A stretch of 50,137 nucleotides of DNA, taken from NCBI GenBank assembly GCA_027028245.1, contig JALVJO010000021.1, positions 71,639 through 121,775 on the forward strand. Direction: 5' to 3'. This document shows positions 6,188 to 37,460 of this stretch, piece after piece. The translations under genes and the position numbers were made by a program. The notes beneath the pieces are model-generated. The model ran no database searches, was not told the DNA's origin, and was given only the letters and a program-made list of their open reading frames with translations. This stretch comes from Deltaproteobacteria bacterium. GTDB lineage: Bacteria; Desulfobacterota; Dissulfuribacteria; Dissulfuribacterales; QOAL01. The number at the start of each line of letters is the position of its first letter. The first letter of the stretch is position 1.

Positions 6188-9100
6188 CTACCCTAAAGAT
6201 CTGGTCATCCTTTTTATGCACCCGGCCATACCTATGAGAAGTACCAGAAGAGCGGCACCAGGGCCGCTAAACAGCGGCACGTTTACCGGCATTTGCACAG
6301 AGGCTGCTGATGTTATCGCTATTTGGTTGTTTTCTATATCATCATCAATGAAACCGTCTCCATCCGCATCCCAGTAGCCGCTGGTCAGATTTTCGGCAGA
6401 TCGCACGCCGTTTTCTAATCTTGTCTGAAAGACGATTATCACTTCGTTGGCAGCCTCCTCTTCATCGGCTGCACCCTGGTCCGGGCTGATAGTTCCTTCC
6501 CAGATTATCTCATTGCTAGTGTCGTCATATTGGCACCTTGTTGTGGTGGAAGAACCCATGGGAACACAGGAAAGGGTGCCTGCAATATATGATGTGTTTT
6601 CCGGGATGGGATCAATGACCCTCACCCTGTTGGCCTGGGCGTTGCCGCTATTTATCCAGACCTGACGCCATGTGATAACAGAGTTTCCTTCATATATCCC
6701 GGTCTTTTCAGCAGAAGGCGGATCAAATACCTGGGGTGCCGAGACCATGACATTGGTCGGGTCGTCGTTACCTGTGATGCCATCGCCGCAGTTTTTGGCA
6801 GCAGAAGAGCAGTCAGTGCCGTCATCGGTTCCGGGGTCGTCCGAGACGGTGCTTGTACCACTACTGTCTGTCAAGACCGCCTGATTGGAAATCACAAGAC
6901 CGGCTCCTGCATTTTGGTCAACAATCACGTCAAAGGAAGCAGTTACGGAGTCACCTGCTGGTACCGTACCTATGTTTATTTCAACAGGAGATTCCGATAC
7001 CATTGCTCCCTGGCTGGTATGAATGCTTCCGCTCACCAGGCTCACATGAGCCGGCACAGGATCTGATAGGACTACACCTTCAGCAGCAGCACTGCCCGTG
7101 TTTGAAAGCACCAGGGCATATCTGAAACTTTCACCCGGATTCAAAAGCCCGTCGTTATTGGTATCATCTATAAGCTGGACCTGTTTGGTAATTCCAAGGG
7201 CAGGGCTGCCAGTTGAACCCGAGGGTGCCACTGCAAAGGTAGTCGGCTGTTCGCCGTCTGCCGGGTCTGGATTGCCGTCAGTAAGAACCTCTGGTGTTTC
7301 ATCAGTGGTGACAACTCCCTGGTTGGTCATTGTACCCGGTACCCCTGCAATGGCTGTAATAGTAATGATCCGGGTGCTGCCTGCCGGTATTGAATCAAAG
7401 TGTGAAGTAACATTCTGAGAGGGAGGAGTCCAGTCTCCATTTGTAACACTGGTTATCTCCACTCCTGAGGGTATTTCATCAGAGAAATTCACATTATGCA
7501 ACTCCGAGGAACCGGTGTTCAGCAGACGTATAGTATAGGTTATTTCATCTCCAACATTTATAGTGCCGTCTTGGGGGGCTACGGAATCATTGGTGAGGTT
7601 TACTTCCTTTTCTGCCCTGAGGTTTGAGGTTGCTGTTCCCCCCACCGGTATATCCGTTGGCTGATCTCCATTCTCGTCGACTCCGTCTGCATCGGTTGGC
7701 TCAGGCACTGACTGGTCTGTATCCACAACACCCTGGTTGGAAATTACCACCCCGGCCGGGGTGTAATCATTGATCCTGACTCTGAAGGTAACGGTGACAC
7801 TCTGTCCTGCAGCCATATCCCCTATCCTTACACTCACTCCATCTGGAACATTGTGGCCATAGTCCCCATCGTCCCCGTCTGCGGCGTCGGTCAGGGATGC
7901 AGAGTCAAGGGTCATGCTTCCTGGAACGTAGGTGGTATTTTCCGGGATTACATCAGTGAAGATCGTCCCGGTAACCGGCGAAGAGCCGTTGGTTATGGTT
8001 ATTGTGTACTCCAGGGTGTCACCTGAGGATACATCCCCGCTTGCATCCGCATCATCTGCAATGCTTACGGTCTTTTGTGCATCAACAGCAGCATTTGCTG
8101 TGGGCATGACCGTTGAGGATGCATCATCACAGTAATCGTTCAGGCCAGGTGGGCAGTCATGGCCCGTCCTGCCGCTGTCTGCCGCGCCAGTTGCCCTTGA
8201 GAGGCTCTTCCACGTCAGGTGCATCGAGTTGGTAAGAGGCTGATCCACAGTGGCGTCAAGGTCCACCCTTGCCCTGTAGGTGAAGGAGGTCTGCCCCTGT
8301 GACAAGGTGAGGGAGTGGATGCGAAACTCCACCTGCTGTCCATTCACGGAAACGTCCGATACCGGAAGAGAGGAATCCACAAAACTCATTCCTGCCGGAA
8401 TCTGATCCTGTATCACCACGTCCTGGGCATCAGAGGTGCTTTGACCCGTGTGAGAGACCTGCACTGTAAAGGTCACCATGTCCCCAAGGGACTGGTGGTC
8501 AGGCTGGGCCGTTTTTGTTATTGATAGATCCGGTTCCACTATCTCCACCGGGATTCCCTGGATGCCAGGAGTTGCCGGATCGTGATCGAAATCGACCCTG
8601 GTTGTTCCACCACCCTGGGAGAAGGTAAGGTAAACATTCGAACCTTCGCTTTCCTGGCCGTTTCTCAAGACCGTTCCAGCCTGGTTGGAGGAAATATTCA
8701 TGGCCTTTGCCACTATTTCAACCTCCACGTAATCGTCACCTGTTCTCCCATCTGCGGGGTTGGCGACATCCCCAAGGTCGATCATCACCTCCTGACCAAA
8801 TCCAACGTTCTGGTCATAGTTTGGATTGGAGAAGGTGATGCCGCTGTTCCCTACGAGTACCTGGTGGCTGACATAACCAAAACCCGTGGGCAGCACATCA
8901 TGGATGGTAAGTCCAGGGATTGTTCCCTCCTGGATACTGGCCCTTATGGTGAATGTGACAGTGTCCCCAACGGTCACCTGGTTCTTGTCTACCTGCTTGT
9001 CAATGGCCACGCTTGTGCCCACTGTCAGGGACTGGCCGGCAGACTCCTCATAGTTGTTGAGCTGGGCGTCGTTATCATCATCTACCGTGCCGGGGCCGGA

Positions 9101-12100
9101 GCTGTTGTCCCTTCCGTTGCCGTTTACCAGGCTTGTGTAGGATGCGTTTGTCTGGTTGTCCAGAACCTGGCCCGGGACCACGCTGTCCATGAGCACGCTG
9201 TCAAAGGTCACGGTAATGGAGGCCCCTGGTCCGATCTGGAAAAGCGGCAGGGAAATGGTGTCATTGGTATTCAACGTGGTGGTTATCTGCACGCTGGAAT
9301 CGGAAACCGGAGTAGAGGTTCCATTCAGAAATACCGAGCCAGAAACGGTTACATGGGCGTTTGAGATGTTAAAGAGGCCGTCTGGCAAGGCATCCTGCCA
9401 GTTTACATGATAGGCAGTGGTATGACCTGTATTTTGGATGCTCACCTGCCAGCTCACTGTGTCTCCGGCGTCCACGTCGGTTGCCCCTGATGTTATGACC
9501 TTTGTCATCTCAAGGTTCGGCTCGCCCACGTGTACCTGTTGTTGATTGTCCACTGGCCCCACTGTAAGGCTGTTTCCGGGATTTGACGGATCATCGTAGG
9601 ATAATTCCACTGTATTTAGCAGCTGGGTCCCGTCCTGGTTGGCCATGATGTTACGCACAACCGTCTGGTAGGTGATTGCCACGTTTCCTGCAGTTGGAAC
9701 CGTCACGTTTCCGAAGTCCAGGGTCATTACACCATTTGAGGAATCGTAGCTGAAAAAGGCACTGTTCGACTCATCCAGGGGTGCATTGGTGGAAGATGCA
9801 CCAGAGGGCAGAGACACATTGAGGGAGGCTGACTCCAGCTCGAGTCCCGACGGAATGTGATCAGTAATGACGAAATTCTTTGAGGTGCCTTTTGGGAGAC
9901 CGGCAGTGATCACGAATGTGGCATTATCCCCTATGGCGTACCAGTTCTTATGATTGAGCATATCCTTGGTTAGGGTAGGCTGTTCAATAGTAACGGTTGC
10001 ACTGCTCGAAGCATGAAGGTCGTTGATGCCGCCGCCACCTGTCCTTTCACCGTTTGTATCGCCAGGATTGCCTGGGGTAGCACTTCCAGTGCCGTGGTTG
10101 CCTGGAAGACTTGTGGCATTAACTGAAGCCGTATTTGTTATCTGTTCTGCGTACTGAACAGAATCGATCAGGGTGGCCGTGTAGGTCACGTCCACGCACT
10201 CTCCCGGGTCAAGCCGGTCTATTTTCTCTGAAATGTGCCTTCCCGAGTGGCTGGTTGTCACGGTTGCACCGGTACTTCCTGCATCAACGTGTACAGAGGA
10301 TATGGCTTCGTACCTGTCAGGAAGCGTGTCAGAAAAGGTCCAGTCAAAGCCCGCGGCAGCCGAATCCCCCGAGGCGCTGTTACAGATGTGAAGCGTAAAG
10401 GTTATCTCATCCCCTGCACTCGCCGTGGTTGGAGAGGCAGTCTTTTGGATCTGCGGGACAGGCTCTGTTGCCAGCAGGTCCACGTTATTGGAAACAAGGG
10501 TGTAACTGGTGCCTGAGGCATCCTGATACACCAGTCCTCCCCTGTCTGGCAGGTTTGTCCCACCATTTGTCACGTTGTTGTTGAGGACTACGACCGTGAC
10601 TCTCAGCACATAAGACTCTAGGGCATTGTTGTCGTTGTTTGAATTGGTGACGTTTCCAAGATCCACGGAAATCCGCCTCCCGTTTGCTGTGTCACTTACC
10701 TGCACGTAGCTGTCGGCATTAACCCAGTCATTGGCCGCTGCTCCATTAAGTGAGTCTGTGCAGATACTGCCGATACAGGAAAGAGCAGAAGAGGTCTTCA
10801 TGATCATTGCAGAGCGCTCGACATATTCTCCCCATGGGGTCCCGGAGACGTTTTCCAGAAGGTCAAAGACCGTAACCTCCTTTGTCTCACCCTCTGGTAT
10901 GGTGAAGGTTACGTCAAAGGTGGCGGTCTCCCCTATGGCAACAGGGTTGGCGGAACCGCTTGTTGCAGGCTCACTTGTGGACACCAGGGTCTTCTGCGAG
11001 CTGACCGTTGCTATCTGGATGGTTGCGGTATCGTTTCCACTTTCACCCCTTTCTCCCTCAACATCTCCATCTTCGCTGCTGTAGGTGGCATTTGCCGTGT
11101 TCTCATAGGGCGTGCTCGTCACGATGTCCTGAATGACATACGTGATAAAGGAAAACTGAAGGGGATTGTCTAAGGGATAAAGGGCGAATCCGCTGTCAGA
11201 GCTGTAGGTCACGGTTGGGCTTGAATAGCTGAAGGTAAAGTGGGCAGGTGTTGTGCCTTCACTTACGCTATTTACGTCAAAGACTCTCCCATCCAGAACA
11301 TCCGTTACGGAAATATCAAAGGCAGGAGAGGTCCCGGTGTTATCCACACTAATGCCAATGGTGACTTCATCGCCTGCATCCGCCCTTGACGGAGAAATGG
11401 TCTTTGTGACCTGGAGATAGGGCTCTCCAAGAAAATTACTCGCCATATCCGTAATGCTTTGGCTTAGACCATCATAGGTAAGCGAAACCGTGTTGGGCTT
11501 TTGCTGAAGCTGGGTGGTTGCACTATTTGTCATATCATCCAGGACCCTTGCCTTGAAAGTGATGTTGAAGCTGTTGTTACTTACGTCATTATCTGCATCC
11601 ACGGTGGCATTACCCATGTCAACGGTTACAGTCTGCCCGTTAACGGTGACCGTGGAAGAGGCAAGGCTTCCTCCAAAGCCGGTGGTATTCACAACAAGGG
11701 TATCGCTTATGTATTCAAGGCCGTCAGGTAACGTATCGGCAAGTGTCAGATTGGGTATCTCACCCTCTGGCAGGGTGACATCCACCCTGTAGGTGACATT
11801 GTCACCAATTGTCATGTTCGGGCTTATGGGGCCAGGAACCACTGACGAGATGGACTTATTCATGAAAGGAGGTGCCATGGAGACTGTGGCATTATCACTT
11901 TTTCTGGGGTAAAGGTCTCCGCCATCACCTGCTGCCCATTCAACCTGTGCCTGGCGATCAATCACGTCCGTGGGCCTTGCATCTTCCTTTATTCTGCAGG
12001 TAAAGGTACCTATGGCCGTGCCATTTTGATCAATGGGATCATTAAGTGCAATGCCTCCATTCCAGAGGTTCCCCGAGTAACCAAGATCTGTCCCGCTTCC

Positions 12101-14623
12101 ATCCTGTACGCTTACAAGGCTGCAGTCATCCATATCCTGGTTGGTGTCGTCGTAAATTCCAACATTATAGGCAGGTGCCTGGCCCGTATTTTCGACGGTT
12201 ATCACAAAGGTAACCGTGTCATTTGCATCCGAATTTGTTGCATCGCCATCAACAGGCAGATTTGATGGTGGAGGGCTTATGACTGCGTTGGGATTGTTAC
12301 TTTGGGAGACACCCTTGGTTATCTCAAGCACTGGCTCCCCAAGCTCGATTTGAATGATACCGTCGGAAAAGGACGCACCTGCGTTGGTGGAACCGTCATT
12401 TGCCCTTACCTGGTTCGTCAGATAAAGGCCGTCTGCAAAAGGGTCATCATTGACCGTTACTGTAAACAGAAGGTCTATGGTTCGTTCAGCAGTGTCGTTA
12501 TCATCAAAGTCCCCGTATATGAACCTTATACTGTTTTCAGGTCCGCTCGTAGTGATGGAAGGATAGTCATGACCGCTGCCGTCGTCATATATATTGTGGA
12601 AGGTGTCATCAGGGCCGAACTTGGCATGGCCTGCAACAGGAACTATATCGTTGGATACGTCATCAAAAGTTTGAATCTCTGTTGCATCCAGGACAGGAAG
12701 AGGCAGATAGTCCGTGAACTCAAGGTCTTCCACATCATTTGTGGGCATGGAGTAGCGGATACGGTATGTGACAGTATCCCCGGGCCGCATAATCAATGGG
12801 CTTGGAAGGTCTGTGCTGCCGTTTATTGCGTATATGTTTTTTGATACCTCTCCGTGCAAAATATTAAAGGACACAGCACTGGTGTCTGCCTCTTGCTGGC
12901 CTGTTGGACTGCTGTTATCTGCAACCGAAAGGAGATTTCCAATTATCCTCACGTTGTTGTCAAGGAGGTCCCCCTGGTCCACCGACTCATCCCCTGAAGG
13001 ATAGTTGACATCAAAGTTCTGCTTTACTATGGTCCTGAAAACTATGCGGCCGGTGGTTGGCCCCTGATTATACTGGTCGCAGTCTGGCTGTCCGCCGCCA
13101 GTGCCGGAATCAGGCACACAGCCTCCAGAGAGCTTGTTCGATAAATGAAAGACCAGGGTCTCTGTGCCGTCTGCGTTTGTGTCGTGATCCGGCGTGATTG
13201 TTACGTCACTGGATGTGCCATGAACATTGGTTACAAGATGGGGAGTGAAACTGGTGTCAAAATCCTGGCCGTCAGAAACAATATCCGTGACGTTGACATC
13301 GTCCATGGAGAAATAGTCCGAAACCTGAAAATCAAGGGTATATTCCACCACGTCTCCAGGTGAGTAACCTGAAGCGCCGACATCAACTGCAATGGCCACG
13401 CCCTTTTGTATGGCTATGGACTTATCCGCAAGGATGTGCTCCGGGCCTTGAGCATCTGCAACTGCATTGTCCTGGCCGGAGGGATCCCTGCTATCCAGAG
13501 GGGTCCAGTCCCCAATTGCCTGGGCCTGGTTGGTGGAATTAACGTCGTCACCGCTTTGGGGATCGATCACGTTGTTTGAGTCTGCATCCTGAAGGGGAAT
13601 GAAATACTTAAACACCACGTAGGCGTCAGTGGAATCGGGGTCGCTGTCTGCAGTGACTGAAGAAAATTGAACATCCAAAACGTTATTTGGAGGACTTGCC
13701 GGATTGTTTACCGGGGGAGACGAAATCACCGTGCCGCCCGACGGGGATGTGGCATTTACCTCAAGAAATGTCATGTTATTTGGCAGGTCATCTGTTATGT
13801 CCAGATTCGTGATGGTCTGTCCTGGGGCAAGCTGCACCTCGATGCGGTAGAGCCGTGGGAAATTGGGCCCTGTTGCAGTCTCATCCTCTGGACCAACATA
13901 ATTTTTTTCAAGCCTTATGAGGGTAGGGGTAACTGTGGAAGAACTTGTCCAGCTCGAAGAATCCGTGGCGCTGTCTGAAAGAATGGTGGGATCTGTGGCA
14001 TGATCGTCCACCGGAGTTGCGCCGAATTGAAAACCGGCCCTTGCCTTTATATCCATGCCATGATTGAGATCGGCCTTCTGGCTGATACTGACAGGGAGCT
14101 CTATGGCCGCTGGAGGTTGATCAGGTACGAAGGAGCCAAAGGGAAGCTGGATGGTGACAAGCTTGTCGCCGGCAGTGCCGCAAACCTGTAAAGGATTTCC
14201 AGTCGTGTCCACTGCAAATGGGTGCTGAACGCAGCCGGTTCCTCCGCCATCGTTGGGAAAGGTCTGGGTGACGGTTGTGACAGAGACCCCAAGGTACGTG
14301 GCATCCCCTGTAACGTCGATTCCGTCAGCCTCCTGGGTCCCTGCCGCCCCATCTGCCCCGTTGACCGGAAGCACCACATCTATAAAGGGGCCGTAGCCGG
14401 CATCGCTGGCATCCGTATTGTCAAACATCAATTCAATGCTGAAGTTTTCTCCTATAAACGGGGCATCAGGCACCTGAATTGACACTTGTGGCTCTGGTGC
14501 TGCCATTGCTTTTGAAGGAGCAAAGATAAAGAACAGTAATGGAAGAAACACGGTTAAGACAAAGGGATTGTTCGATCCGGTTTTAACTTTGCAGAATATT
14601 TTACCAGTATTGATCTTTTCCAT
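6188..14623 (-). CDS. Giant DUF11-repeat surface protein (2811 residues)
   Basis: A signal peptide covers about 1-42 (hydrophobic VLTVFLPLLFFIF, then APSKAMA). The body is about 16 copies of the DUF11-type beta domain, each opening with a K after a short strand, then G-D-x-[VI]-x-[YF]-x-[IV], a central N-T-G or P-E-G, and D-x-[LI]-P-x-G. Between about 12340 and 8520 the copies alternate between two kinds. The last 25 residues form a hydrophobic helix (GAALLVLLIGMAGC) after NVPLFSGPG, followed by the basic tail KRMTRS, resembling the three-part C-terminal sorting signals of the IPTL-CTERM or PEP-CTERM sort. DUF11 proteins are usually extended stalks or adhesins. Several D/E-x-N-x-S/T sequons are visible. 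ATG is preceded by GGAGGGGTGGGGG. No Cys-rich, enzymatic or metal motif was recognised. Confidence 0.85.
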   Translation of the reverse strand: MEKINTGKIFCKVKTGSNNPFVLTVFLPLLFFIFAPSKAMAAPEPQVSIQVPDAPFIGENFSIELMFDNTDASDAGYGPFIDVVLPVNGADGAAGTQEADGIDVTGDATYLGVSVTTVTQTFPNDGGGTGCVQHPFAVDTTGNPLQVCGTAGDKLVTIQLPFGSFVPDQPPAAIELPVSISQKADLNHGMDIKARAGFQFGATPVDDHATDPTILSDSATDSSSWTSSSTVTPTLIRLEKNYVGPEDETATGPNFPRLYRIEVQLAPGQTITNLDITDDLPNNMTFLEVNATSPSGGTVISSPPVNNPASPPNNVLDVQFSSVTADSDPDSTDAYVVFKYFIPLQDADSNNVIDPQSGDDVNSTNQAQAIGDWTPLDSRDPSGQDNAVADAQGPEHILADKSIAIQKGVAIAVDVGASGYSPGDVVEYTLDFQVSDYFSMDDVNVTDIVSDGQDFDTSFTPHLVTNVHGTSSDVTITPDHDTNADGTETLVFHLSNKLSGGCVPDSGTGGGQPDCDQYNQGPTTGRIVFRTIVKQNFDVNYPSGDESVDQGDLLDNNVRIIGNLLSVADNSSPTGQQEADTSAVSFNILHGEVSKNIYAINGSTDLPSPLIMRPGDTVTYRIRYSMPTNDVEDLEFTDYLPLPVLDATEIQTFDDVSNDIVPVAGHAKFGPDDTFHNIYDDGSGHDYPSITTSGPENSIRFIYGDFDDNDTAERTIDLLFTVTVNDDPFADGLYLTNQVRANDGSTNAGASFSDGIIQIELGEPVLEITKGVSQSNNPNAVISPPPSNLPVDGDATNSDANDTVTFVITVENTGQAPAYNVGIYDDTNQDMDDCSLVSVQDGSGTDLGYSGNLWNGGIALNDPIDQNGTAIGTFTCRIKEDARPTDVIDRQAQVEWAAGDGGDLYPRKSDNATVSMAPPFMNKSISSVVPGPISPNMTIGDNVTYRVDVTLPEGEIPNLTLADTLPDGLEYISDTLVVNTTGFGGSLASSTVTVNGQTVTVDMGNATVDADNDVSNNSFNITFKARVLDDMTNSATTQLQQKPNTVSLTYDGLSQSITDMASNFLGEPYLQVTKTISPSRADAGDEVTIGISVDNTGTSPAFDISVTDVLDGRVFDVNSVSEGTTPAHFTFSYSSPTVTYSSDSGFALYPLDNPLQFSFITYVIQDIVTSTPYENTANATYSSEDGDVEGERGESGNDTATIQIATVSSQKTLVSTSEPATSGSANPVAIGETATFDVTFTIPEGETKEVTVFDLLENVSGTPWGEYVERSAMIMKTSSALSCIGSICTDSLNGAAANDWVNADSYVQVSDTANGRRISVDLGNVTNSNNDNNALESYVLRVTVVVLNNNVTNGGTNLPDRGGLVYQDASGTSYTLVSNNVDLLATEPVPQIQKTASPTTASAGDEITFTLHICNSASGDSAAAGFDWTFSDTLPDRYEAISSVHVDAGSTGATVTTSHSGRHISEKIDRLDPGECVDVTYTATLIDSVQYAEQITNTASVNATSLPGNHGTGSATPGNPGDTNGERTGGGGINDLHASSSATVTIEQPTLTKDMLNHKNWYAIGDNATFVITAGLPKGTSKNFVITDHIPSGLELESASLNVSLPSGASSTNAPLDESNSAFFSYDSSNGVMTLDFGNVTVPTAGNVAITYQTVVRNIMANQDGTQLLNTVELSYDDPSNPGNSLTVGPVDNQQQVHVGEPNLEMTKVITSGATDVDAGDTVSWQVSIQNTGHTTAYHVNWQDALPDGLFNISNAHVTVSGSVFLNGTSTPVSDSSVQITTTLNTNDTISLPLFQIGPGASITVTFDSVLMDSVVPGQVLDNQTNASYTSLVNGNGRDNSSGPGTVDDDNDAQLNNYEESAGQSLTVGTSVAIDKQVDKNQVTVGDTVTFTIRASIQEGTIPGLTIHDVLPTGFGYVSHQVLVGNSGITFSNPNYDQNVGFGQEVMIDLGDVANPADGRTGDDYVEVEIVAKAMNISSNQAGTVLRNGQESEGSNVYLTFSQGGGTTRVDFDHDPATPGIQGIPVEIVEPDLSITKTAQPDHQSLGDMVTFTVQVSHTGQSTSDAQDVVIQDQIPAGMSFVDSSLPVSDVSVNGQQVEFRIHSLTLSQGQTSFTYRARVDLDATVDQPLTNSMHLTWKSLSRATGAADSGRTGHDCPPGLNDYCDDASSTVMPTANAAVDAQKTVSIADDADASGDVSSGDTLEYTITITNGSSPVTGTIFTDVIPENTTYVPGSMTLDSASLTDAADGDDGDYGHNVPDGVSVRIGDMAAGQSVTVTFRVRINDYTPAGVVISNQGVVDTDQSVPEPTDADGVDENGDQPTDIPVGGTATSNLRAEKEVNLTNDSVAPQDGTINVGDEITYTIRLLNTGSSELHNVNFSDEIPSGVEITSVTNGDWTPPSQNVTSHFDSIPAGSTRIITITAIAGVPGTMTNQGVVTTDETPEVLTDGNPDPADGEQPTTFAVAPSGSTGSPALGITKQVQLIDDTNNDGLLNPGESFRYALVLSNTGSAAAEGVVLSDPVPAHVSLVSGSIHTSQGAMVSESPVEINIGTVPAGDSVTASFDVIVDQNAGAGLVISNQAVLTDSSGTSTVSDDPGTDDGTDCSSAAKNCGDGITGNDDPTNVMVSAPQVFDPPSAEKTGIYEGNSVITWRQVWINSGNAQANRVRVIDPIPENTSYIAGTLSCVPMGSSTTTRCQYDDTSNEIIWEGTISPDQGAADEEEAANEVIIVFQTRLENGVRSAENLTSGYWDADGDGFIDDDIENNQIAITSAASVQMPVNVPLFSGPGAALLVLLIGMAGCIKRMTRSLG
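8512..12341 (-). repeat. Two-domain (A+B) super-repeat inside the DUF11 protein, period about 0.9-1.0 kb
   Basis: Five A-type domains begin with a variant of EP-x-L-x-x-x-K: GEPVLEITK near 12325, GEPYLQVTK near 11417, TEPVPQIQK near 10459, GEPNLEMTK near 9514 and VEPDLSITK near 8527. Each A domain carries an NTG-like centre (ENTGQAPAYNV, DNTGTSPAFDI, QNTGHTTAYHV). Four B-type domains lie between them, with LPEGEIPNLT, IPEGETKEVT, LPKGTSKNFV or IQEGTIPGLT at the same place. The unit is therefore a pair of domains about 300-330 residues long. Confidence 0.7.
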
Positions 14624-31652: not shown

Positions 31653-31714
31653 TTTTGTCTTTTTAATATCAGTATATTGATTTTCATTGCCCCTGTCATT
31701 CTTATCTTCTATAG

Positions 31715-31742
31715 TTGTGCATTAATATACAATACCTATGAT
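31715..31742 (+). promoter_or_regulatory. Candidate promoter of the receptor/kinase operon
   Basis: TTGTGC (31715-31720), a 16-base spacer, and TATGAT (31737-31742, 5/6 match to the -10 consensus). It lies in the 114-base divergent gap between glnE and the TonB receptor and supports the GTG start at 31767 over an upstream TTG at 31677. The gap is too short for a cobalamin riboswitch. Confidence 0.4.
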
Positions 31743-31766
31743 TTGATCTATCCCGGGAGAGCAAAG

Positions 31767-33689
31767 GTGAACAATAAGTCCCTAATAATTGTCTTTTTCA
31801 TCCTTTTGCTGCCTGCCATGTCTCATGCCGCTGTAAAAGCCAAGGAGGCCCTTCTATTTCAGGATATTCCCAGGGTGAGTACTGCCTCAAGACAGGTCCT
31901 GACAGTACTCGAATCTCCTGCAACGGCCACGATAATTACCAGGGAGGATATTGTCCACAGCGGTTACAACAGCATCAGCCGGCTCCTGAGGTACGTGGCT
32001 GGAATCGATTTTTTTCAGACCAGCGACTCCACTTTCAGCGTGGGCATGAGGGGAGTGAACGGCCTTCATGCCAACAACGTACTGATACTGGTGGATGGAA
32101 GACCCATTTATTCACCTGTAAGAAACACCAATCAATGTGCCCTTATCCCCGAGGTTCCAGACGATATAGAAAGAATAGAGGTGGTCAGGGGACCGGGCTC
32201 TGTCCTATATGGTTCAAACGCCTTTTCCGGGGTGGTGAATATAATCACAAGATCTCCAGAAGCCCTGCCCGGGGTACAGCTCACTGGTTCCGGAGGTACT
32301 TTCAGCGATTATTTATACAGCTTCACCTCGGGCAAGAGGTTCGGCAGCTGGTCGTATAAACTGCTCAGCGCCTGGACCCAGAAGAATTCCACCCAGGAAC
32401 ATGACCGGCAGATAAAGGGGCTCTGGAAAATGTCCGGAGAAATGAACTACGAAAAAAGACCGGGCACCAACTATAATGTATCCTTCGGCTTTTCCAAGGG
32501 TAAGCTCCTGGTGGTTTCATATACTCCTGCGCCCTTTGAACAGGACGGCTTTGACGGTTTCCTGAGGACCAGGTTCAACCGAAACGACTTGAAGCTCGAC
32601 CTTTGGTGGCGCCACTTTGATACCACCGGGGATGTTGCCGGCTCCGGCCATTTGAAGTGGAAGTTTGACCACGTGGACCTGCTCCTTCAGAACAAGTTCG
32701 TATGGGGCAGACATAATCTTATAGGAGGGGCGGAAGGCAGATTTTCCAGCCTTGGCGTCACCACCTACGACGGATGGCATAATCAATTTATAGGAAGCCT
32801 GTTTTGTGAAGATCGCTGGAAACTCAGTTCTTCCATCGATGTTTTTACGGGATTGAGGATCGACTACCAGACCGAGGCCCATGAGGCCTTGTCTCCCAGG
32901 ATAAGCGCAGTATATTCCCTTGATGAGGACCAGTCTATCAGGTTTTCTGCATCCAGGGCCTTTAACTATCCATCCTATCTTCAAAATTATATACACATAG
33001 GCACCTCTCACATGCACCATGAGGGAAACCAGCGTCTCAATCCGGAAAAACTGACAAGTATCGAACTGGCATACCAACGCTTCCGGCCTTCCGGTCTCTC
33101 CTTTTCAGGATCTGTCTTTTATAATTACTACAATGACATTATCGATCTAAAATACAGGAATGAGGATTCAGATCTTTACCTTGTATATGAGAATCTTTAC
33201 GACATTTACCTCTACGGCATGGAACTGTCATTCCAATACAGATTTGCCCTGAATCTCCTGCTCCGCGGTAATTACAGTTATGTCTGGAGACAAAAAAAAT
33301 CGGGCATGATCTTCGGCCCTGTTCCTTCCAACCAGATAAACGGGGAAGTTCGGTATGAATTCCCCAGGGGATTCTGGATAGATATGAGGTTTCATTGGCA
33401 GGATCGTTCGGATTATTCTTCCGGCATAATTCCTGTGGGCTTTCCAGGATCACTGCCAGTGTCTGCTTCCTCCGGGGATTTGTCGGAGCCTCCTTCATGT
33501 TCTGACACTGATTGGCGTGAATTGGAAGGTTTCAGCCTGGCAGATCTGTCAGCCGGTTTCATCTCGCCAGACGGCAGATGGTCTTTTACCACGGCAATCC
33601 ACAACCTGTTTCACAGTACCCACAGGGAAATACCAGGGGGAGCAGAGGCGGATACCACCTTTACAGCCCGGCTTTCGGTTTCTTTTTAG
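31767..33689 (+). CDS. TonB-dependent outer-membrane receptor
   Basis: Starting at GTG 31767 (GGGAGA six bases before), the product has 640 residues with a clear signal peptide (IIVFFILLLPAMSHAA). The frame continues upstream to a TTG at 31677, but that part has no ribosome site. The plug domain follows: SPATATIITREDIVHSGYNS, VGMRGVNGLHANNVLILVDG, IERIEVVRGPGSVLYGSNAF and SGVVNIITR. A 22-strand-type barrel runs to the end, with the final strand TFTARLSVSF carrying a C-terminal Phe. The family imports siderophores, cobalamin, metals or sugars using TonB energy. No exbB, exbD or tonB is nearby. It leads a tight four-gene group with a binding protein and two kinases. Confidence 0.92.
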   Translation: MNNKSLIIVFFILLLPAMSHAAVKAKEALLFQDIPRVSTASRQVLTVLESPATATIITREDIVHSGYNSISRLLRYVAGIDFFQTSDSTFSVGMRGVNGLHANNVLILVDGRPIYSPVRNTNQCALIPEVPDDIERIEVVRGPGSVLYGSNAFSGVVNIITRSPEALPGVQLTGSGGTFSDYLYSFTSGKRFGSWSYKLLSAWTQKNSTQEHDRQIKGLWKMSGEMNYEKRPGTNYNVSFGFSKGKLLVVSYTPAPFEQDGFDGFLRTRFNRNDLKLDLWWRHFDTTGDVAGSGHLKWKFDHVDLLLQNKFVWGRHNLIGGAEGRFSSLGVTTYDGWHNQFIGSLFCEDRWKLSSSIDVFTGLRIDYQTEAHEALSPRISAVYSLDEDQSIRFSASRAFNYPSYLQNYIHIGTSHMHHEGNQRLNPEKLTSIELAYQRFRPSGLSFSGSVFYNYYNDIIDLKYRNEDSDLYLVYENLYDIYLYGMELSFQYRFALNLLLRGNYSYVWRQKKSGMIFGPVPSNQINGEVRYEFPRGFWIDMRFHWQDRSDYSSGIIPVGFPGSLPVSASSGDLSEPPSCSDTDWRELEGFSLADLSAGFISPDGRWSFTTAIHNLFHSTHREIPGGAEADTTFTARLSVSF

Positions 33690-33694
33690 GGGCC

Positions 33695-34630
33695 ATGATG
33701 GAGACCAGGCGTCTTATACTGCTGACTGCCCTGGCGGTCCTTGCCCTGTTTTTCTGTATTTCGTTTGAATCCCTTGCGGCATGTTCCGGGGTGAATGCTG
33801 CAATCGTCGTGTCGGATCATTTTGGTCCCTATATCACTGCGGCAAATGCAATAGAAAAACACCTGGCTGTCAAATGTCCGGATGCATTTGTCAGCAAATT
33901 TTTTCTGGACCAGGGAAGGGATTCAGGGTTCAGGTTGAACACAGGTTCTCCTGACATCATTTTTACCGTGGGAACCAAGGCATCCATGACAGCCCATAAT
34001 ATGTTTCCAGGGATTTTATCAATCTTTTCCATGGTTCTTGATCCGCCGCCGGTCCTTTTGGATAAAAGCAACAGGTACGGTGTTGCACTGGATATCCCCT
34101 GCCGGGAGGTATTGAAATTCCTGCTGATGCTGGTGCCTCAAGTTACACGTATAGGGGTCCTTTATACAGAGGAATCTGAGAACATGCTCGACAGGATGGC
34201 GGGAGAAATAGCGTCTTCCGGCCTCCAGCTTGTACAGATACTGGTGAACTCGCCGGAACATATCCAGGAGAGGCTGGAAGAAGTCTTTCGGTTTTCCGAT
34301 GCGTTGATAGCCGTTCCTGATATGAATATCTATAATAGTATAGTTGCCCCGAGGATTATTTTTGAGGCAATTCGGCAGGGCAAACCCTTTGTCGGGCTTT
34401 CGAAGAATTTTACCTTATCAGGGGCCCTTTTTTCCCTGGACTGTGACTACAACGACATAGGAATTCAGGCTGCAGACCTGGGCCTTGAGATTCTGTCCGG
34501 ACACAAGCCCGTGCAGAAGATCCAATATCCCCGCAAGTTCACTGCCTATCTCAATATTCATACTGCCCGTTTGATCGGCCTCATGCCTGATAAAAAGGTT
34601 CTTGATGCGTTCAAGATTATCGCATATTGA
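33695..34630 (+). CDS. ABC-type substrate-binding lipoprotein (ABC_sub_bind family)
   Basis: I take ATG 33695 as start (AGGGG before it) because it begins an exact lipoprotein signal: METRRLILLTALAV, then lipobox LAAC with the Cys at residue 30. The open frame extends upstream to 33578 inside the receptor gene without a signal sequence. The mature protein of about 280 residues has the two-lobed fold of the ABC_sub_bind family: DIIFTVGTKAS, VPQVTRIGVLYTEES, DALIAVPDMNIYN, ALFSLDCDYNDIGIQAADL. No permease or ATPase gene is present. It is flanked by the receptor (5-base gap) and a sensor kinase (9-base gap), so it may deliver a ligand signal to the kinase. Confidence 0.87.
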   Translation: MMETRRLILLTALAVLALFFCISFESLAACSGVNAAIVVSDHFGPYITAANAIEKHLAVKCPDAFVSKFFLDQGRDSGFRLNTGSPDIIFTVGTKASMTAHNMFPGILSIFSMVLDPPPVLLDKSNRYGVALDIPCREVLKFLLMLVPQVTRIGVLYTEESENMLDRMAGEIASSGLQLVQILVNSPEHIQERLEEVFRFSDALIAVPDMNIYNSIVAPRIIFEAIRQGKPFVGLSKNFTLSGALFSLDCDYNDIGIQAADLGLEILSGHKPVQKIQYPRKFTAYLNIHTARLIGLMPDKKVLDAFKIIAY

Positions 34631-34639
34631 GATCTTGAG

Positions 34640-36340
34640 ATGAAGGCAAAACTCGCCCTGAAATTTGCAGTCTTCACCACAGCCATTTTGGCTGTTAGTT
34701 TTGCCTCTCTTGGAATCTTCTTTGTCCATAAACAGAGAACCGTGGTCTTGCATGACCTGGAACAGTTGTCCACGGCCCTGGCAACAGACCTTGCTGCAAA
34801 TAGTGCCTTTGGGCTTGTTACGCGCAACAGAAATCAACTCAAGGACCTTTTGCGCTCCCTTGCCAATGTAAGGGATATAAAATTTTCCTGGATAGAGGAC
34901 AGATCAGGAGGGCTCCTTGCCTATTTTGGAGAGATTCCATTCGATTTATTCCATGAAATCTGCGTGAAGATTCGAAGGCAGGGGAGACGGGGCGTTAATA
35001 CCGGACGAGGCCGTAATGTTCCCAGCACTGGAGAACGGGCAGTTGTAATGCGTTCAGAAAAATTTCCAGGTCTGCTTGTGGCCAGTGCACCGGTTACAGG
35101 TGCAAGACCTGCCAGTCCTGAGGCACTCATACTGGATCCGGGAGGTAAAAAAGGCCGACAGGTCTATCTGGGAACTGTGGTCGTAGGATTTTCCCTGGAA
35201 AGGGTCGACAGGGACATACTGTCGGCAAAGAAACAATCCCTGGCCATCATTTCTGTAGTGGGGCTGATTTCTCTGTTTCTGACCATTGCTGTTGTACACG
35301 TGATTACAAGGCCCTTGTACCAGTTGAAGACTGCGGCAGAACAAGTGATGGAAGGCAAGACTCCGCCCTTTGTGACAGTGAAATCCCGCGATGAGATCCG
35401 GGATCTCGCTGAGGCTTTCAACCAGATGGTCCGCCAGCTGCTTTCCAACAAGGAGGCCCTGGAAAAGGCGTACAGGGATCTGGAGGCAGTTAATGCAAGT
35501 CTTGAAGAAAAGGTGGCCCAGAGAACAAGGATCCTTCAAAATACCGTGGAAGAACTCAGCGAGGCCAGGGATCAGCTGGAGAACGCCTATAACGAGATGA
35601 AGGCCATGTACCAGGCCAAGGCGGCGTTTCTCCGTACTGCTTCCCACGAGCTTCGTACTCCGCTTACAGCCATAAAGGCCAATATAGATTACATGAGGAC
35701 ATATCTTAATGATGAACTTGGAGAAGAGGCCCTGGATATAGTGGAGGCAGTACATAAGAATGCCAATAACATGAGGGCCGTGGTGGAAAACATGCTCACC
35801 ATGCTGAGGATTGATTCTGAATCCATGCCTCTTAACATCGAATCAGTGAATCTGTATCAGCTGGTTGCAGGGGCAGTTTCAGAACTTAAGGCCCTTCAGG
35901 GGGAGCGCATGATAAATATACGTATTCCCGAAGATCTCAGTATTGAATGTGACAGTGCAAGATTTCACGATTTGTGTTTTAATATCCTGAGCAATGCATA
36001 TAAGTTTACGCCTGAGAATGGGACCGTTAACATTTCTGCCGACCGACAGAGGGATTCCTTGATCATAAGAATTGAGGATGATGGAGAGGGCATCCCTCAA
36101 GAGCATCTTTCCAGTATCTTTGAGCCGTTCTACCAGGTTCATCCAGGACGCGAAGGTTCCGGCCTGGGCCTGGCCATAGTAAAGGCAGTTGTAGAAAAAC
36201 ACGGCGGCAGGATAAGCGCAGCATCAAGCCCTGGTGAGGGCACGGTTTTTACCATAATTATGCCGCAGGTTTCACCAGTAAAAACGGACAGCAGCAGCCG
36301 GCAAAACCATGAGTTCATCAGAGAGCGTAAAGAACAATAA
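34640..36340 (+). CDS. Membrane sensor histidine kinase (CHASE8-like, HAMP)
   Basis: 566 residues. Membrane helix one is at about 8-30, and a periplasmic domain at 31-200 contains LATDLAANSAFGLVTRNRNQ, resembling CHASE8 sensor domains. Helix two is at about 201-222, HAMP at 223-275 and a coiled coil at 275-325. HisKA has H336 in ASHELRTPLTAI. The ATPase domain is complete: N box NILSNAYKFTPENG (N452), G1 EDDGEGIP, F box FEPFYQ, G2 GSGLGLAIVKAVVEKHGG. It overlaps the next gene by 32 bases. I infer that it senses the state of the binding protein or receptor encoded just upstream and phosphorylates the receiver of the next product. Confidence 0.9.
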   Translation: MKAKLALKFAVFTTAILAVSFASLGIFFVHKQRTVVLHDLEQLSTALATDLAANSAFGLVTRNRNQLKDLLRSLANVRDIKFSWIEDRSGGLLAYFGEIPFDLFHEICVKIRRQGRRGVNTGRGRNVPSTGERAVVMRSEKFPGLLVASAPVTGARPASPEALILDPGGKKGRQVYLGTVVVGFSLERVDRDILSAKKQSLAIISVVGLISLFLTIAVVHVITRPLYQLKTAAEQVMEGKTPPFVTVKSRDEIRDLAEAFNQMVRQLLSNKEALEKAYRDLEAVNASLEEKVAQRTRILQNTVEELSEARDQLENAYNEMKAMYQAKAAFLRTASHELRTPLTAIKANIDYMRTYLNDELGEEALDIVEAVHKNANNMRAVVENMLTMLRIDSESMPLNIESVNLYQLVAGAVSELKALQGERMINIRIPEDLSIECDSARFHDLCFNILSNAYKFTPENGTVNISADRQRDSLIIRIEDDGEGIPQEHLSSIFEPFYQVHPGREGSGLGLAIVKAVVEKHGGRISAASSPGEGTVFTIIMPQVSPVKTDSSSRQNHEFIRERKEQ

Positions 36341-37460
36341 GGCAGTGAAAACTTCAGGGCTGTCATCGGGAATCCAGGAGCCCAGGGACAGGATACTCCT
36401 GGTTGAAGATTTTCAGGATACGGTCATCATTATAAAAAGGCTCCTGGAAAGAAACGGTTACCAGGTTGAGGTCGCCCTTACCATTTCAGAAGCCAGGGAA
36501 AAGATGGACGGCATGACCCCCGATGCGGTGATACTTGACATCAACCTTCCAGACGGCAGCGGCCTGGATTTCCTCCAGGACCTGAGAAAGGTTTATCCCG
36601 ATACACCGGTGATAATGCTTACTGCCTACACAGAGCTGGAAAACGCCGTGCGTTCTCTCCAGCAGGGAGTGGATGACTTTATCCCCAAACCCTTTGAGAA
36701 CAGCTATCTCCTCCATTCCATAGCCAGGGCACTGGAAAGGCGCAGGCTCAAGGAGAGACTTCGAAACTCAGAGAAATTCAGGGCCCTGGGCGAGATGGCC
36801 GCAGGGGTTGCCCATGATTTCAACAACCTGTTCCATTCCATGGCTGCTCATCTCTATCTGTTGAAAAAAAGCATAGGGGAGGACAAGAATTCCCTGGAGC
36901 ACATTTCAGCCTTGAAAACGGCAGTGGACGATGCCGCGGAAATAGTCAGGCGTCTTAATTCCATGGGAAAATCCGATGACGCCCATCTCCAGGTTGTCGA
37001 GCTGGCATCCCTGATAAACGACACGTTGATAATGACCAAGCCCAAGTGGTATCACAGACCAAGGCAGAATGGCTACAGTATTGAACTGCAGGCAGCCCTT
37101 GAAAATGACATCTACGTCCGGGTCAATCCCTCGGAAATAAGGGAGGTATTTACGAACCTCATCTACAATGCAGTGGATGCCATGCCCACAGGCGGCATAC
37201 TTGCCATTAAGGCCGAGCGGAAGGAAGACAGGGTCTGCTGTGTATTCAGGGATAGCGGAACAGGCATATCTCCTGATCTGATAAACAGGATATTCGACCC
37301 ATTTTTTACTACCAAGGATAGCGGCTCCGGCCTCGGCCTTTCCATCTCTTATGCCATAATAGAAAAACATCAAGGGGAGATGTCGGTAAGAAGCAAGCCG
37401 GGCGAAGGGACTGCCTTTTACATCAGCCTGCCAATTGATGATCCGGCCAAGGAAGCCTGA
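36309..37460 (+). CDS. Receiver-histidine kinase hybrid (cytoplasmic response-regulator kinase)
   Basis: 383 residues, no membrane helix. The N-terminal receiver (27-140) has D77 in VILDINLPDGSG, T105 and K127. HisKA follows with H169 in GEMAAGVAHDFNNLFHSM, a variant close to the NtrB group, then the ATPase domain with NLIYNAVDAM, DSGTGISPD, FDPFFTTK and GSGLGLSISYAIIEKHQG. All kinase motifs look intact. There is no DNA-binding or output domain, so a further regulator elsewhere must end the relay. It starts within the membrane kinase gene, so the pair is co-translated. Convergent with a small ORF 7 bases beyond its stop. Confidence 0.9.
   Translation: MSSSESVKNNKAVKTSGLSSGIQEPRDRILLVEDFQDTVIIIKRLLERNGYQVEVALTISEAREKMDGMTPDAVILDINLPDGSGLDFLQDLRKVYPDTPVIMLTAYTELENAVRSLQQGVDDFIPKPFENSYLLHSIARALERRRLKERLRNSEKFRALGEMAAGVAHDFNNLFHSMAAHLYLLKKSIGEDKNSLEHISALKTAVDDAAEIVRRLNSMGKSDDAHLQVVELASLINDTLIMTKPKWYHRPRQNGYSIELQAALENDIYVRVNPSEIREVFTNLIYNAVDAMPTGGILAIKAERKEDRVCCVFRDSGTGISPDLINRIFDPFFTTKDSGSGLGLSISYAIIEKHQGEMSVRSKPGEGTAFYISLPIDDPAKEA

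Follow-up and report, generated by a model that had tools for sequence, protein, structure and literature searches.

Four adjoining genes encode a TonB-dependent outer-membrane receptor, a periplasmic binding protein of the PF04392 family, a membrane sensor kinase (kinase 1) and a cytoplasmic receiver-kinase (Table 1). They lie within the window, the whole 50,137-nucleotide stretch of the Deltaproteobacteria bacterium contig JALVJO010000021.1 that was analysed here. According to their open reading frames and start regions, successive genes are spaced by +8, +9 and -32 bases, in line with the spacings of -32 to +9 given in an earlier note, which had been made from the sequence alone. The unit is bounded by a divergent glnE-like gene and, downstream, by a heptosyltransferase-type gene set (names from reading the sequences). 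No permease or ATPase gene adjoins it according to Pfam, as the same note had read for the binding-protein gene. No riboswitch was found in the intergenic region upstream of the receptor gene, and no sigma-54 sites were found ahead of that gene, where matches were no more frequent than chance. Elsewhere in the window, positions 6188-14623 of the reverse strand hold a single open reading frame of 2811 aa.

Table 1 Features of the four-gene unit and its upstream region (positions in the window).
Feature	Position	Strand	Composition or basis
Short intergenic region between receptor gene and divergent glnE-like gene	31653..31766	+	Promoter expected here
TonB-dependent outer-membrane receptor	31767..33689	+	Plug + TonB barrel (Pfam), CirA/BtuB-like plug
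PF04392 periplasmic binding protein, sensor-linked branch	33698..34630	+	ABC_sub_bind (Pfam)
Membrane sensor kinase (kinase 1)	34640..36340	+	TM - periplasmic single Cache - TM - HAMP - coiled coil - HisKA - HATPase
Cytoplasmic receiver-kinase	36309..37460	+	Response_reg-HisKA-HATPase (Pfam)

Products of the four genes

The GTG codon at 31767 was preferred as receptor start over that of the longest open reading frame because a GGGAG-like ribosome site precedes it and the resulting protein begins with a clean signal peptide, MNNKSLIIVFFILLLPAMSHA. The receptor carries the N-terminal motif EALLFQDIPRVSTASR, and an LLF...TAS motif recurs at the N-terminus among the receptors. With both plug and barrel present, the protein belongs to the TonB-dependent receptors; about 40 residues precede the plug, and no match to a FecA-type signalling (STN) domain was found in the receptor. 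Its nearest solved relatives, the colicin I receptor, the enterobactin receptor and BtuB, were matched by the plug only, which does not fix the ligand. ExbD is encoded in the genome of the window, so a TonB receptor can be energised.

The binding protein scored 49.0 bits against ABC_sub_bind (PF04392; cut-off 25.9). Its predicted model (pLDDT 93) shows the complete two-lobed form with the fold of CD0873/TrpX, and it matched the tyrosine/tryptophan-type PF04392 structures CD0873, 3lkv and TrpX-type 3lft with Z-scores of 24.7-28.7. Against the TrpX equivalog NF041285 (NCBIfam) it reached 44.3 bits, far below the cut-off of 390. The earlier note had called this protein a lipoprotein, a reading that was rejected here as unlikely: the cysteine of its LAAC motif (C29) is accompanied by a second cysteine (C60) both here and in relatives L038-L041, L043-L046 and most members have neither, and the family shows no conserved lipobox. 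Because the two residues come and go jointly and no lipobox is conserved, a C29-C60 disulfide is probably likelier than lipidation.

The periplasmic domain of kinase 1 spans approximately residues 30-195 between two transmembrane helices. Its model matched the sensor domains of WalK and CitA with Z-scores of about 12, LuxQ also being close, and by fold it is a single Cache/PDC domain, an assignment that for the window protein relies on the predicted model. The label "CHASE8-like" given earlier was replaced, as no CHASE8 match was obtained for the window kinase at an E-value of 0.1 (Pfam). Among 14 kinase homologues, seven matched sCache_4 and three matched CHASE8 weakly. The Cache domain could itself bind a small molecule. 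The motifs of kinase 1 are intact, including SHELRTP with the catalytic histidine H336 and the N- and G-boxes, as are those of the receiver (VED/VILDI/LTA/PKP) and of the second kinase (HDFNN). Pfam detected no output domain in the receiver-kinase, which confirms its earlier description. The protein is the probable next step of a phosphorelay, and it is an accessory outside the constant core of the unit, retained within the genus and by some relatives and lacking in other members of the family (L043, L044 and L046).

Gene order and outputs across the phylum

The genomes sampled all come from a single phylum. Of 99 genomes searched, 60 contained relatives of the binding protein, and 20 stretches around the best of these relatives were taken for comparison of gene order, the check that the earlier note had proposed. 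The order receptor-binding protein-kinase was found in every genome of the same genus with a complete locus, and it extends across the family, order and phylum. When the search was made from the sensor side, using the first 200 residues of the kinase alone against 60 genomes, 23 loci were recovered. In 21 of these, a binding-protein gene in the same orientation immediately precedes the sensor gene; the remaining two encode chemoreceptors, and one of these belongs to a cluster in which a binding protein is encoded too. A further search, with a profile for the N-terminal portion of the kinase, covered 395 genomes, several of which had not been used in building the profile. This profile includes HAMP, and matches far down the list, which are generic kinases, were left out of the counts. 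Among the best 30 loci, the binding protein lay directly upstream in 29; the thirtieth, L197, is a CheR-CheW-MCP version, and in L112 the same version has a binding-protein gene ~2 kb upstream. A second, distant copy of the unit in the genome of the window (L006) is arranged as binding protein-kinase-NtrC regulator-receptor.

The output following this front end differs between loci. It consists of a HisKA kinase and a receiver-kinase at the window, a kinase with an NtrC-type regulator in L006, L057, L170 and L171, a hybrid kinase in L049, L119 and L120, a HisKA_3 kinase in L121, and CheR-CheW-MCP with the same periplasmic domain in L112 and L115, with a Che cluster in L054; some versions have a single receiver in place of the receiver-kinase. 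Such variation behind an unchanging front end would be expected if the binding protein communicates with the Cache domain. Co-divergence was analysed by mirror-tree on the 19 loci having all parts. Correlations were 0.77 for binding protein and Cache domain, 0.81 for binding protein and receptor and 0.85 for Cache domain and receptor, values that partly reflect shared descent and serve as supporting evidence only. Binding protein and kinase catalytic part correlated at 0.42, the catalytic domain being more conserved, which lowers the correlation.

Chemosensory versions, in which a TonB receptor and a PF04392 protein occur with CheR, CheW, CheA or an MCP, were noted at L112, L115, L054, L125 and L167. 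An MCP with the same periplasmic domain is present in L112, L115, L054 and L167, and in L167 no binding protein was seen in the vicinity.

A cultured bacterium carries the arrangement on a plasmid as well. Plasmid pSD of Geobacter anodireducens (CP014964.1, 5475-10221; L206, 3094-7840) encodes a receptor, a PF04392 protein, a HAMP-HisKA-HATPase kinase and a receiver in the same order, all annotated as hypothetical proteins. This unit differs from that of the window in its fourth gene, a lone receiver without an output domain, and its kinase has a weak CHASE8 match and no match to the window-based sensor profile; as part of a cultured bacterium it offers a practical test case. On a Legionella adelaidensis plasmid, a PF04392 protein adjoins a HAMP kinase that does not match the sensor profile. 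Plasmid searches with the sensor domain gave no useful match.

Importer or sensor

A PF04392 search covered 198 genomes of the phylum. From its hits, 40 were drawn from across the ranking, and their flanks were annotated in six frames. A tree of 88 PF04392 proteins, comprising these 40 and relatives found earlier, separated a sensor-linked branch that holds the window protein (45 rows, SH-aLRT 99) from an importer branch (18 rows, SH-aLRT 99). In the former, 35 rows lie beside a Cache-HAMP sensor, two beside chemoreceptors and none beside a permease, so that the conserved permease linkage elsewhere, which the earlier note had named as a refutation, was not seen; in the latter, 14 lie beside a permease and none beside a sensor (sensor versus permease neighbours in the two branches, Fisher p 6e-10). 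When only the evenly drawn loci are counted, 13 of 40 belong to the sensor-linked branch, again with no permease. High-scoring PF04392 proteins adjoin a permease and an ATPase, and further PF04392 groups pair with hybrid kinases. TonB receptors were found with most of the sensor-linked branch; some copies lacked a receptor gene in the part of the locus that was read.

In the genome of the window (96% complete), PF02653 permeases were found only in a Liv operon, split over two contigs, with its own LivJ-like binding protein, which leaves an importer reading without a partner. For a TrpXYZ-type importer, a PF02653 permease and an ATPase would be expected next to the binding-protein gene, or else an unassigned matching set elsewhere in the genome; neither was found. 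There is good support for the view that the binding protein works for the kinase instead of an ABC importer: the gene order is conserved, the branch has no permease linkage and the genome holds no spare permease.

Other PF04392 arrangements were observed in passing. On the contig of the window, ~38 kb before it (L005 6417-10380, G000:C21), a 359 aa binding protein without a permease directly precedes a membrane hybrid kinase of 959 aa, which matches dCache, and belongs to a second, separate kinase-linked PF04392 branch. On another contig of the genome (G000:C57, ~48.3-50.8 kb; L004 64-2523), an 819 aa protein joins an N-terminal PF04392-type domain to a TolC-like outer-membrane efflux protein, and its gene closely follows that of an RND pump, placing a binding-protein domain on an efflux duct. 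PF04392 proteins that are very long (940-1267 aa) and contain between two and four binding domains each occur in L086, L087, L090, L091, L093, L094 and G223:C17; several also match a permease profile, which suggests that they may be binding domains fused to permeases.

Proposed signal path and related systems

Taken together, the unit is likely to be a transport-coupled sensory module, in which import by the receptor, docking of the binding protein on the Cache domain, a kinase switch and a phosphorelay follow one another. The TonB-driven receptor would bring a scarce ligand across the outer membrane; the dedicated PF04392 protein, a relative of importer binding proteins that has no permease, would capture it in the periplasm and dock on the Cache domain of kinase 1. 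Docking would alter kinase activity via HAMP, either by activation or by YfiR-like inhibition, and phosphate would pass from kinase 1 to the receiver domain of the receiver-kinase and would then reach a regulator encoded elsewhere, with the receptor gene presumably under the control of the pathway. These genes are best explained by a ligand that would enter through the receptor, be captured by the binding protein and be sensed by the kinase. The earlier note had likewise proposed a transport-coupled phosphorelay rather than an ABC importer: its dismissal of an importer is borne out by the conserved order and the lack of permease linkage, whereas we infer the ligand, its binding and the contact with the kinase.

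The main competing explanation holds that the binding protein feeds an inner-membrane importer encoded elsewhere, while the kinase only controls the genes for uptake and detects unbound ligand by itself, as is the case for PfeS. Importers are the classic setting of PF04392 proteins, as most of the importer branch illustrates, uptake is the usual role of TonB receptors, and with PfeS there is already an example of a kinase associated with a receptor of this kind. Nevertheless, this appears unlikely given that the 96% complete genome offers no PF02653 permease beyond a Liv operon already served by its own binding protein, that permease neighbours are lacking throughout the sensor-linked branch, and that the binding protein stays tied to the Cache domain even where the output is a chemoreceptor. 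It is improbable, too, that the binding protein is a ligand-free regulator that holds the kinase off in the manner of YfiR and YfiN until freed by an envelope or redox signal, with the cysteine pair as switch. Although C29 and C60 are kept in the nearest relatives and some relatives match CHASE8, the YfiN-type domain, most members have no such cysteines, the model is a full two-lobed binding protein near Tyr- and Trp-binding structures, and the protein often accompanies a TonB receptor, which suggests that a ligand is imported.

Finally, the genes might merely be neighbours whose inherited linkage has no functional meaning. The genes flanking the units are mostly housekeeping genes; yet they differ between loci while the unit persists, the unit occurs two or three times in one genome at unlinked places, and independent, reciprocal searches recover the same pair, which makes simple neighbourhood highly improbable.

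In YfiBNR, a periplasmic protein acts upon the short sensor domain, anchored in the membrane, of YfiN, which is of the CHASE8 type; the system differs from the window unit in that YfiR is no binding protein and the window kinase has no CHASE8 match. TrpX-type ABC importers share the PF04392 family and fold with the window protein, whereas the unit has neither permease nor ATPase and its binding protein falls in a separate branch of the tree. Binding-protein-dependent sensor kinases are known from LuxP-LuxQ, TorT-TorS and XylFII-LytS (PMC6321045), precedent for the binding protein-kinase half of the relay is also given in PMC9602780, and receptors driven by binding proteins are thought to be widespread, with few known (PMC9602780, PMC6321045). 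As in these systems, a soluble two-lobed periplasmic binding protein is combined with a membrane kinase, and at the window, as in the LuxPQ kind, the binding-protein gene is paired with a membrane kinase having a periplasmic sensor domain. The LuxQ periplasmic domain matched that of kinase 1 with a Z-score of 10.1 (123 residues, 3.0 A), and XylFII matched the binding-protein model with a Z-score of 15.7. The window unit differs from them in its PF04392 protein, its one Cache domain and the TonB receptor within the unit. Import by PfeA/PirA is needed for the kinase PfeS (PMC8001512), and PfeA/PirA with PfeS-PfeR and PirS-PirR resemble the window unit in linking a TonB receptor to a two-component system that answers an imported periplasmic ligand; however, their signal path has no separate binding protein, and PfeR is a transcription factor, whereas the window unit ends in a receiver-kinase. 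In the open-access literature searched, no description of the three-part unit was found, and the combination of a receptor, a kinase and a binding protein apparently out of transport seems to be undescribed there.

Neighbouring genes gave only two leads to the ligand, both from loci with cobalt/nickel transporter or cobamide genes. In L125 (8423-10858), cobamide genes (CobU, CobT-like, CobS-like) lie beside the receptor, and in L172 (2813-6272) a DUF4198-CbiM-CbiQ-CbiO (ABC ATPase) cobalt/nickel transporter set is tail-to-tail with the unit. Since neither locus is closely related to the window unit, cobalt, nickel or a corrinoid as its ligand can be no more than a guess from gene neighbourhood.

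More speculatively, these units may represent a trans-envelope class in which a receptor, a binding protein that has abandoned transport and a Cache sensor form one relay, its outputs freely exchanged among kinase, hybrid kinase and chemotaxis array, and in which receptor traffic itself is read; we regard this as a tentative proposal. Overall, genes that look like those of a nutrient importer probably encode a sensor, the bound molecule most likely being read and not taken up. They belong to a large family recurrent in one phylum, whose binding protein seems to be devoted to sensing and is tied to an outer-membrane receptor. If so, many proteins annotated in these genomes as "ABC transporter substrate-binding protein" would be sensors, and the gene order provides a rule for finding receptor-sensor pairs and, via them, their ligands.
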